Origin: Clostridiales bacterium
GTDB lineage: Bacteria > Bacillota > Clostridia > Saccharofermentanales > Saccharofermentanaceae
DNA length: 64,000 nucleotides
NCBI GenBank assembly: GCA_017428545.1
Contig: JAFRQR010000014.1
Span: 1 to 64,000, forward strand
Direction: 5' to 3'
The first letter of the stretch is position 1; each line of letters starts with the position of its first letter. Of the stretch, positions 6,087 through 55,495 are shown piece after piece. The translations under genes were made by a program, and so were the position numbers. The notes below the pieces were generated by a model, which had not been told where the DNA came from, made no database searches, and saw nothing but the letters and a program-made list of their open reading frames with translations.

Positions 6087-6350
6087 TTTCTATTTATTTC
6101 TCCTTAGTCTGTACCTCGATTGATTCTCGTGCCGGTGGTCGCGCACGAAGCCGCACGGACAGGTGCTTTTCGCAAAGTGCGGATCGAACCGGCGCGAGCC
6201 GACATCTATATAATACCACCTATATATGCTTAGAGCATAACGAAAACTTGGGGAGATAAACGCTGTAATTCGCAATAATCGATCCTATAGAAATCGAGCC
6301 GGACGGAAGGGGATGGGTTGCAAAAGGGATTGAGATAAGTCTGACGATTG
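6087..6350. other. Intergenic region upstream of speE
   Basis: No gene seen. The stretch holds GC-rich short inverted segments, one copy of the window-wide octamer GTGCTTTT (6163-6170) and an AT-rich block at about 6210-6240 (TATATA twice around ACCACC) that could contain the leftward speE promoter, although no convincing -35/-10 pair could be assigned. Confidence 0.4.
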
Positions 6351-6356
6351 CATGGG

Positions 6357-6644
6357 TTTTATATCAGGTGAAAAAGTCGCACCTGATATAAAAGCACTAT
6401 AAACGTCTGATTTATATCAGGTAAAAGTTGGGCGCTTGATATAAATGTTTTAAAAATGGTCGAATTATATCAGTCGGATGGACCGGGCTGGTGATATTAC
6501 TGATATAAATCTTGAATCTCCTCATCTTTTAGATAACCCGCTTTCATGAAAACTGGTATAAAAAACCCGATATGGGCTGGTTTATATCAATCGATTGGGG
6601 AAAAACTGAGATAAATTAACTTCCATTGGTCCATTTATATCAAT
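6357..6644. repeat. Intergenic hairpin array A, word TTATATCAG
   Basis: At least eight exact copies of TTATATCA or its complement TGATATAA lie in 290 bases, mostly as facing pairs. The best pair is a perfect 14-base inverted repeat, TTTTATATCAGGTG at 6357-6370 and its complement at 6380-6393 with a 9-base loop. Others pair 6411-6419 with 6437-6445, and 6465-6474 with 6499-6508; further half sites are near 6582 and 6635. It fills the gap between speE (upstream side) and the end of the nuclease-like gene. Confidence 0.8.
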
Positions 6645-26500: not shown

Positions 26501-27345
26501 TGCCGGAAGAGGATATGCCTTTCCTGCCGGATGGTACTCCGCTTGACATCGTACTCAATCCTCTCGGCGTTCCGTCCCGTATGAACATCGGTCAGCTCCT
26601 CGAGGTTCACCTCGGCCGTGCTGCCCGCGCCCTCAACTGGAAGGTCGCAACACCGGTATTTGACGGTGCAAACGAGAGCGACATCATCAAGGCATTCCAG
26701 CTTGCCGGAATCGATGAAGACGGTAAGACGATCCTTTACGACGGACGTACAGGTGAGCCTTTCGAGAACAGAATCACCGTTGGTGTTATGTATTACCTCA
26801 AGCTCCACCACCTCGTTGACGATAAGATCCATGCCCGTTCGATCGGACCATACTCCCTCGTTACGCAGCAGCCTCTCGGCGGTAAAGCCCAGTTCGGCGG
26901 CCAGCGTTTCGGTGAGATGGAAGTTTGGGCCCTCGAGGCATACGGTGCAGCACATACCCTGCAGGAGATCCTCACAGTTAAGTCGGACGATATCACCGGC
27001 CGTACAAAGACATATGAGGCGATCGTTAAGGGTCAGAGCGTACCTGAGGCCGGTATTCCGGAATCCTTTAAGGTACTCGTCCGTGAGCTTCAGTCTCTGG
27101 CTTTGGATGTCCGCATCTACTCCGGCGACGAAGAGTACAAGCTCAAGGATGCTGCTGATGAAGAAGAGAATCTGCCGTCTCCGGATCCGGAACTTCTCAT
27201 GAAGTTCGATTCGCTGGCAGAAAGTGAGATGGGTGCCGCAGGTTTCTCTGAGGTCGGTGAAGACGGCGAGCTGATCGACGATTCTCCGGAAGATGAAGAA
27301 CCGAGCATGGACGATCTCGCTTCCATGGAAAATGAAGATATGTGA
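23569..27345 (+). CDS. rpoB: RNA polymerase beta subunit
   Basis: A 1258-residue core subunit of RNA polymerase. The N-terminus ([15 protein letters not shown]) is Firmicutes-like; the rifampicin pocket [20 protein letters not shown] with [11 protein letters not shown] carries the sensitive-type residues (Asp, His and Ser at the positions of E. coli 516, 526, 531). Further conserved blocks include [31 protein letters not shown] and the C-terminal [20 protein letters not shown] Glu/Asp-rich tail of about 50 residues ends the protein. GAGAGGTG lies before the ATG. Codon use is strongly biased (CGT, GGT, ATC) as for a highly expressed gene. rplJ/rplL are not upstream. Confidence 0.98.
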
Positions 27346-27367
27346 GTAGGGAAGGAGATAGCAATAT

Positions 27368-31003
<3,636 letters not shown>

Positions 31004-31028
31004 TCCAAGCACCAAACAGTTGATCAGA

Positions 31029-31067
31029 AGAGGGCAACTCATCACTTCGATGAGCTGCCCTCTTTGC
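31029..31067 (+). terminator. Terminator of rpoBC
   Basis: AGAGGGCA plus ACTCATC (31029-31043) pair with GATGAG plus CTGCCCTCT (31049-31063); a short T-rich tract follows. Confidence 0.8.
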
Positions 31068-31078
31068 TTTGTTTATGC

Positions 31079-31191
31079 AGTGGTCAATGTAGTGGTCAAT
31101 GTAAAACGATACGACATTGACCATAACATTGACTTTTGCTCATATTCCATGAAGTGGTCAATGTAAAACGATACGACATTGACCACTTCAT
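31079..31191. repeat. Intergenic hairpin array C, word GTGGTCAATGT
   Basis: The word occurs in both orientations with the same 11-base loop AAAACGATACG. A 32-base unit is repeated directly at 31092-31123 and 31154-31185. In the second copy the arms extend to 16 perfect bases (31149-31164 and 31176-31191, starting ATGAAGTGGTC). Additional half sites are at 31080-31090 and at about 31126-31134. It lies after the rpoC terminator. The rest of the 371-base gap to the next gene contains an octamer copy at 31341 and no visible gene. Confidence 0.82.
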
Positions 31192-31374
31192 TGGATTCTT
31201 GCGCAACAGGATTGTAAAATAAGAGAAACGTCACTTAGGTTGTGTTGGGGATTTACCGATAGTAAAATACAAAGTAACAGAGAATGCCTTATTATCGGGC
31301 AGTTCTATGCGTAGTTAGAAGAAAGAGCCCCGAAAGACAAGTGCTTTTGGAGAAGAATAACGGAAAGGTGTCAG

Positions 31375-32829
31375 ATGCGGCAGCATAGAAAAAGCAGAGA
31401 TCGGAGACTATCTGTTGTCATCATCGCGATATGTACCATGATTACATTCCCGGTGCTGATGATCCCTGTCGGCCTGCGCGAAAGTACACCTGCCGGAGTT
31501 GTTGTCGGCCGCGCGTATGCAGCCGCATATCCCTATAATGATCAGGAAGAAGTATATGTCGAGGACTGGGCGCTCGTTCCCGGAAGTTCCGATGTAACGG
31601 ATCCGACAGGCGATCCGGACGGAACAGATCCGACTTTGGATACGACTGCTGATCCTACGGCGACTACCGATCCTTCGGCTGATCCGTCGGTTACGGATCC
31701 AACAGGTGAAGGCGAGGGCGAAGAACCCGACGAGCCGGAAGAAGGATATATGCCGATCCAGACGGTCGACCCGGAAACAGGACTTGCGCTTATCGAGGTT
31801 GCTGATGGTGAGACCGCCGTTCAGGAGTCATATTTCGATAACAGCGAACAGATCGAGAAGAAGTATGCAGGTGTTCTGACCGCTCAGATCGTCCAGACAT
31901 ACGATTCCTCTAATCTTCCGATCGAGCTTCTTGATACGACCGCATTTATCCCGACGGACGAAGTGTTCTACATCAAGACAACAGATACGATCCTTAAAGA
32001 AAAGCCGAATATGGATGCCGTTACAGTCGCATCGGTCGCCAGATCCACTCAGGTCACACGTATTGCGAAAGGTGATACATGGTCGCTGATCCGCCTGGAA
32101 TCCGGTGTGGAAGGATACGTACTTACGAACTCCCTTTCCGTAGAGATGGTATTTAACTCGATCGACAGAACCGTCTGGGTCGATGCCAGCGGTCTCAAGC
32201 TCCGTTCCGAACCGAATACGAACTGTGAAGTCATTAAAGAAATGAAGCGCTGGACGCGCCTGCACTGTTCCGGTGTTGCAAACGACCAGTGGTATAAGGT
32301 CACACTGGACGATGGCACGGAAGGCTATGTTTATAAGTCCTACACGACTCAGAAACCACCGCCGACACCTACACCGAAGCCGACACCGAAGCCGAAGAGC
32401 AGCGGTAAGGGCGGAAAGAGCGGAGGCGGCTCAAACAACAATCCGCCGCCGAAGATCACCGGCGTAAACGGCGAGAGTATCGTAAATATCGCAAAATCCA
32501 TGCTTGGCGTTGACTATGTATGGTGCGGCGAATCAAAAGGCGGTGTAGACTGCTCCGGTCTGGTCGTTTACTGCTACCGTCAGGTCGGACTTTCAGTCCC
32601 GCACCAGTCGAATTCGATCAAGACCAAAGGAAGTTCGGTAGACCGTTCGGAACTGCGTCTCGGAGACGTTATCGTATATGACTTAAAGGGTAATGACGGA
32701 ACGGCTGACCACGTTGCCATCTATGCCGGTAACGGTCAGGTCATCCACGCATCTTCCAGTAAGGATGCCGTTGTTTACGGAAGCCTGGATATGGGTAAGA
32801 TCTTAACTTACCGGAGATTTATCGGATAA
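31375..32829 (+). CDS. Secreted NlpC/P60 peptidoglycan endopeptidase with SH3 domains
   Basis: A 484-residue cell-wall hydrolase. After a signal/anchor segment (residues 13-35, ending AYAAAYP) come an Asp/Thr/Pro-rich repeat linker (about 60-115), two bacterial SH3 domains (about 195-245 and 255-315), a Pro/Thr/Lys linker (PTPTPKPTPKPK) and a C-terminal NlpC/P60 domain. The catalytic Cys393 lies in DCSGL, His446 in DHVAIY and the third polar residue is His458 in VIHAS. It should cut D-gamma-glutamyl-diaminopimelate bonds during wall turnover. GGAAAGG precedes the ATG; terminator at 32872. Confidence 0.92.
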   Translation: MRQHRKSRDRRLSVVIIAICTMITFPVLMIPVGLRESTPAGVVVGRAYAAAYPYNDQEEVYVEDWALVPGSSDVTDPTGDPDGTDPTLDTTADPTATTDPSADPSVTDPTGEGEGEEPDEPEEGYMPIQTVDPETGLALIEVADGETAVQESYFDNSEQIEKKYAGVLTAQIVQTYDSSNLPIELLDTTAFIPTDEVFYIKTTDTILKEKPNMDAVTVASVARSTQVTRIAKGDTWSLIRLESGVEGYVLTNSLSVEMVFNSIDRTVWVDASGLKLRSEPNTNCEVIKEMKRWTRLHCSGVANDQWYKVTLDDGTEGYVYKSYTTQKPPPTPTPKPTPKPKSSGKGGKSGGGSNNNPPPKITGVNGESIVNIAKSMLGVDYVWCGESKGGVDCSGLVVYCYRQVGLSVPHQSNSIKTKGSSVDRSELRLGDVIVYDLKGNDGTADHVAIYAGNGQVIHASSSKDAVVYGSLDMGKILTYRRFIG

Positions 32830-55376: not shown

Positions 55377-55379
55377 TAA

Positions 55380-55495
55380 AAGGAAGCTTCTCCTTGCGAC
55401 GAGTTTTGCGCTTCCGGAAAAGGAAACTTCTCCGAGCGACGAGTTTTGCGCTTGCGCAAACTGTTTGAGTCGCAAGGAGAAAGTTTCCTTTTCGC
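55380..55495. repeat. Nested hairpin with a partial direct repeat (element D)
   Basis: A unit beginning AAGGAA(G/A)CTTCTCC and continuing GCGACGAGTTTTGCGCTT occurs twice (55380-55413 and about 55419-55453), followed by its complement at about 55454-55492 (GCGCAAACTGTTTGAGTCGC and on to TTTCCTTTT). The inner palindrome, GCGACGAGTTTTGCGC facing GCAAACTGTTTGAGTCGC, is the same core as in element E at 33284-33318, in reverse orientation. It probably also terminates the lipoprotein gene. Confidence 0.8.

Follow-up and report, generated by a model that had tools for sequence, protein, structure and literature searches.

A dispersed intergenic hairpin repeat with a fixed 62-bp unit at the rpoC locus and elsewhere in a rumen Clostridia lineage

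The window, by which we mean the whole 64-kb stretch of DNA analysed, contains a hairpin array placed between the terminator of one gene and the promoter region of the next. The upstream gene, for which 22 of the 23 genus genomes have an orthologue, was taken to be rpoC from its place after rpoB and its own sequence. The features of the locus are as follows.

27368-31003, + strand: rpoC, the gene upstream of the array
31028-31064, + strand: ordinary rpoC terminator, a GC-rich hairpin just 5' of the array
31075-31197, + strand: two-unit hairpin repeat element including the outer half-sites, with outer limits inferred by comparison with G005 and G007 at the same site
31083-31133, + strand: hairpin unit 1, with arms 31083-31102 and 31114-31133 and loop 31103-31113 (AAAACGATACG)
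31083, 31095, 31114 and 31126 (starts), + strand: the half-sites of hairpin unit 1
31134-31144, + strand: 11-bp linker TTTTGCTCATA between units 1 and 2
31145-31195, + strand: hairpin unit 2, with arms 31145-31164 and 31176-31195 and loop 31165-31175, identical to that of unit 1
31375-32829, + strand: secreted SH3/NlpC-P60 cell-wall hydrolase gene, downstream of the array

A 1282-aa open frame also lies antisense to rpoC (27197-31045, - strand), and it is most likely a codon-usage artefact.

The initial annotation had described a 32-base hairpin unit with an 11-base loop, repeated exactly after 62 bases, with extra half-sites nearby. In this study, the exact 32-nt core (GTGGTCAATGTAAAACGATACGACATTGACCA) was found at 31092-31123 and 31154-31185, and an extra half-site at 31080-31090. 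The 11-nt loop was as described, but the true arms are longer, at 20 nt each. The covariance model scored unit 1 at 74 bits and unit 2 at 69 bits. The 251-nt region containing the array folded at z = -9.2 against dinucleotide shuffles, with 0 of 200 shuffles as stable, and the single units folded at z = -6.8 and -8.2. An Rfam scan of the region gave no match above the gathering score, only sub-threshold microRNA-type matches to the plain stem.

The unit has the form GTCNNTGT-4-GTCNNTGT-11-ACANNGAC-4-ACANNGAC-11, which makes 62 bp with four 8-bp half-sites, the latter two inverse. Arm direction flips every 31 bp, and the half-site spacing of 12/19/12/19 is fixed in nearly all arrays. Among 146 inner half-sites the skeleton GTC--TGT was almost invariant: T2 and C3 were constant in 146/146, and G1 differed in three. 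The two middle bases were variable (AA, CA, TA, AC, CC or TC); they differed among the arrays of one genome and agreed inside one array. In G012 and G022 other words, CCCTG and CTCTG, occur at periods of 61-62, so the geometry of the unit outlasts its sequence. Linkers often begin with TTTT. The loop had been proposed to be functional in sequence, and this was not borne out, as 40 kinds of loop occurred in 73 units and only the loop length (10-11 nt) was kept. Units of type A (loop AAAACGTTTCR) mostly make up a composite of two units at sites that are not orthologous; the remaining units are found in longer arrays, which tend to occupy orthologous sites. In most G014 copies the two-unit element starts with CTGGTCNATG and ends with CATNGACCAG, giving inverted ends CTGGTC..GACCAG.

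Searching the own genome (G000) for the core with <=3 mismatches gave 4 occurrences, so the rpoC unit is not unique. The genome carries 17 units in 7 arrays, the number of arrays being at least seven.

C10:31.1k: array of 2 units
C10:151.5k: array of 2 units
C22:129k: array of 6 units
C22:26.2k: array of 2 units
C25:14.9k: array of 2 units
C16:388.4k: array of 2 units
C16:149.75k: 1 unit

A looser palindrome pattern matched 12 times in this genome and its reversed control 0 times, and further diverged arrays of the family were recovered by blastn. Among the genomes compared, which are draft MAGs, a covariance model of one unit gave matches in 12 of 23 from the genus and found diverged relatives in five from the sister genus. 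The pattern ANTGGTCNNTGTA-N10-ACANNGACCANT was then scanned against about 85,000 species, and 21 of the 22 contigs matched were rumen Clostridia MAGs of this lineage; the sole Lachnospiraceae match (L166) was one isolated hairpin with no array. The family is thus essentially confined to one rumen Clostridia lineage. An exact-match search of genome contigs with the rpoC-array sequence gave no match, because its loop is private to this genome. In the sister genus, G089 has five two-hairpin copies, and G141 has three 270-bp elements (L148, L151, L152) that are 97-99% identical, have long inverted ends TGTGAAATGGGGACGGTTCT and each carry such a hairpin. These copies show the dispersal of such hairpins in related genomes. 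A phage or plasmid origin was rejected, as phage and plasmid records contained no match; four IMG/VR matches were one coding-looking phage sequence region, a chance match. Another palindromic array in the window (TTTATATCAGGTG / CACCTGATATAAA, 6331-6445, spacing about 53 bp) is unlike the rpoC-array family in sequence and geometry.

Copy number was compared among relatives at orthologous sites. At the FtsX-permease locus we found 6 (G000), 4 (G003), 3 (G001) and 2 (G007) units, and at least 1 in G005, where the contig ends. The symporter/radical-SAM locus has 3, 2 and 2 units, and the acetyltransferase/flavodoxin locus has 1 unit in four genomes. A unit that is unique and single-copy in all relatives was not what we observed, and the proposed duplication is supported by tandem units at a fixed 62-bp step, by copy number that differs at the same locus and by loops that are more alike within arrays. 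At the rpoC site, G000, G005 and G007 carry an array, which is missing from G012, G022, G001, G021 and G008; of these, G012 and G022 are the closest relatives in the rpoC tree. Since the array-less sites also have a different terminator hairpin, it is possible that the array was gained, and equally that the entire segment was lost or replaced. No consistent target-site duplication was seen by eye flanking the arrays, the empty sites having diverged flanks, and no clean base-exact empty site was found among the sites compared. Neighbour genes cluster only by orthology, which ruled out a shared neighbour gene across arrays.

At the rpmB site, G000 has two units and G022 has six with other words; G002, G004, G009 and G020 have none, and other species have two unrelated palindromic families. 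One of these, a second family in G005, G007, G014, G017 and G019, is resembled by the CGAGTTTTGCG part of a 40-bp tandem repeat (AAAAGGAAACTTCTCCGAGCGACGAGTTTTGCGCTTCCGC) at 55378-55460 of the window. A third family (GTTGATTCGAAAAATCC..GGCGCCTGCG..GAATCAAC) occurs in G012 and G022 (L219, L224). The rpmB intergenic site, whose repeat families differ from species to species, may be an insertion hotspot beside a terminator. At the locus orthologous to C22:26k, G005, G007 and G015 (L230-L232) have dispersed short CGCAAATATGGATTAGT-type repeats.

Similarity within arrays was examined by permutation. Type A loops had mean differences of 0.71 within and 1.56 between arrays, and other loops 2.12 within and 4.97 between (0/1000 permutations in both). 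Cores, like loops, were more similar within than between arrays (0/1000 permutations). Because loops match within arrays and vary freely between them, in-situ duplication or homogenisation of units is supported by the sequences. Half-site words inside one unit agreed beyond permutation for every pair, a result to which common ancestry of the half-sites contributes and in which the sequences are not independent. The inner paired half-sites agreed most (47/73), whereas the outer paired ones agreed in 28/73, no better than non-pairing ones (28-36/73). In G007 at the FtsX locus, HS1-3 have AC, yet HS4, the partner of HS1, has TA, and in L108 one spacer, the linker, appears inverted. Template switching between nearby inverted repeats is a mechanism that corrects arms to each other (PMC8794818). 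Since non-pairing half-sites agree as well as outer pairing ones, the pattern is what templated copying would be expected to give, and pairing selection alone would not.

None of the 57 arrays overlapped a predicted gene. By gene orientation, 23 were convergent, 20 tandem, 3 divergent and 11 undetermined, as counted with approximate calls from a home-made gene caller and with orthologous arrays counted separately. REPs are reported to have the same preference for gene 3' ends and for convergent or tandem intergenic places (PMC3733652). A gene 3' end faced an array within 130 bp in 43 cases, with a terminator detected between them in 8, which is a lower bound, as the detector misses some that are visible by eye. 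About 19 gene 3' ends lie <=31 bp from an array, and in these gaps the detector found no other terminator. Many units have a stem-loop followed by TTTT(T) on one strand, and the C16:149.75k unit has it on both. At the acetyltransferase/flavodoxin locus, a single unit lies 3-4 bp past a stop codon in G000, G002 and G007, and G010 has a standard bidirectional terminator, AAAAAAGGGACTGCATTCGTGCAGTCCCTTCGC, at the position of the hairpin unit. This natural replacement, at one locus, is suggestive as to function. The hairpin unit there takes the place of a relative's ordinary bidirectional terminator, so some copies probably terminate transcription.

These observations bear on the view that selection keeps the hairpins as transcription terminators or as mRNA hairpins at 3' ends, in many cases bidirectional, with tandem units strengthening the block between convergent genes. 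We regard this as conceivable but rather doubtful. The enrichment at gene 3' ends, the approximately 19 ends with no other detected terminator, the replacement of the G010-type terminator and the TTTT at the start of many linkers agree with it. However, an ordinary terminator stands beside the array at rpoC and at several G014 sites, where the array would be redundant. The rpoC-site array is probably redundant because the intact rpoC terminator precedes it, and several G014 copies adjoin terminator hairpins within a shortened T-tract. Moreover, the stems are AT-rich, the T-tract of many units runs in one direction only, and the terminator scan of the window, which allows loops of 3-8 only, called no terminator in the array. 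The outer pairing half-sites, as noted, also agree no better than non-pairing ones.

It is improbable that the arrays serve as sites for a DNA-binding protein, with four 8-bp half-sites per unit and successive arms 31 bp apart, or about three helical turns. The nearly invariant GTC--TGT skeleton and the constant spacing would suit such a protein, but one sequence-specific protein would not require middle bases that differ between the arrays of one genome and agree within them, and divergent (promoter) regions have almost no arrays. That the structure is CRISPR-like or due to chance is extremely improbable. The period of about 61-62 bp and repeats of about 30 bp recall CRISPR, but repeat and spacer are both conserved and palindromic, the spacers measure 11 bp, and the genes scanned included no cas-like neighbour; CRISPR was rejected on this structure. 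Chance is excluded by the shuffle folding (z = -9.2) and by the 12 pattern matches against 0 for the control.

The repeat is dispersed and intergenic, its four-half-site geometry is fixed, its copy number changes at orthologous sites, and its loops and arms are homogenised within arrays. The explanation that we favour, and consider fairly likely, is that of a hairpin repeat that is non-coding, dispersed and specific to the lineage, and that behaves as REP/BIME or BOX elements do. A putative trans-acting enzyme would have spread the two-unit form (about 120 bp), and arrays would grow and shrink in 62-bp steps via slippage or unequal recombination. Hairpin-templated (template-switch) copying, together with gene conversion, would keep the half-sites of one array similar. 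Copies would persist at transcript 3' ends because they are harmless there, and some may have taken over as terminators. Against this explanation, no trans-acting enzyme was found, nor a target-site duplication or a clean base-exact empty site. Several arrays also occupy orthologous places in several species, which agrees with lengthy vertical inheritance, and so with a possible function, no less than with mobility, and the GTC..TGT skeleton and 62-bp geometry are more strongly conserved than pure neutrality would predict. The arrays constitute an undescribed repeat family for a common, little-studied rumen lineage.

A more speculative proposal, which we advance only tentatively, is that the geometry (two 8-bp words per 20-bp arm, a 10-11-nt loop, an 11-bp linker and a unit of about 62 bp) is actively maintained while the word changes in concert across the array, in some cases at one locus shared by sister species. 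If true, hairpin-templated concerted evolution could be seen here directly, perhaps with some enzyme acting on single-stranded hairpins. Orthologous arrays with different words provide a natural test of how long hairpins retain complementary arms, one that can part pairing selection from templated copying, because non-pairing half-sites agree as well as outer pairing ones. Compensatory change, often read as proof of functional RNA, may mislead in such repeats.

REP, BIME and REPIN elements are short intergenic palindromes that often come as doublets and in tandem clusters; they lie at 3' ends, where the flanking genes are convergent or tandem (PMC3733652, PMC3116915). The array family resembles them in its dispersed short intergenic palindromes, with doublets and tandem clusters at gene 3' ends. 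It differs in having no conserved unpaired GTAG/CGTC tag beside the hairpin, the four bases between half-sites being variable (GTAAT/GTAGT) and inside the 20-bp arm, in the two copies of an 8-bp word in each arm and in the fixed 62-bp unit. It differs also in the RAYT-type transposase: G000 (98% complete) has no Y1_Tnp (PF01797), 10 of the 12 carrier genomes lack it, and 2 of 5 sister-genus carriers have it. A RAYT-driven REP was rejected, as the transposase is missing from G000, and the family falls outside REP/REPIN where these are defined by their tag and RAYT. G141 also codes a 299-aa Y1 transposase, located elsewhere than its 270-bp elements.

The BOX elements of Streptococcus pneumoniae are likewise lineage-restricted, multi-part intergenic stem-loop repeats, which have been judged to be probable parasites that can affect genes transcribed with them (PMC3049150). 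BOX consists of boxA-boxB(n)-boxC modules, whereas the array family is a single self-similar unit repeated, and the Rfam scan, the one search made for it, recognised no BOX in the region. Like bacterial MITEs, the family is small, non-coding and dispersed, with terminal inverted repeats in the two-unit form and a 270-bp hairpin-bearing element with inverted ends in the sister genus. For this family, no target-site duplication was seen by eye and no parent transposon was found, with no transposase domain among the 20 array-neighbour proteins scanned in the genus. An ISL3-family transposase (L153, 364-1281) lies about 240 bp from a sister-genus copy, with hairpins not on both flanks. Template-switched quasi-palindromes are similar in that arms are corrected to each other and one spacer appears inverted (the L108 linker), and different in that the mechanism here is read from the pattern. 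The array is thus a repeat of the REP/BOX/MITE kind, real, multi-copy and lineage-specific, with an unusual locked geometry.
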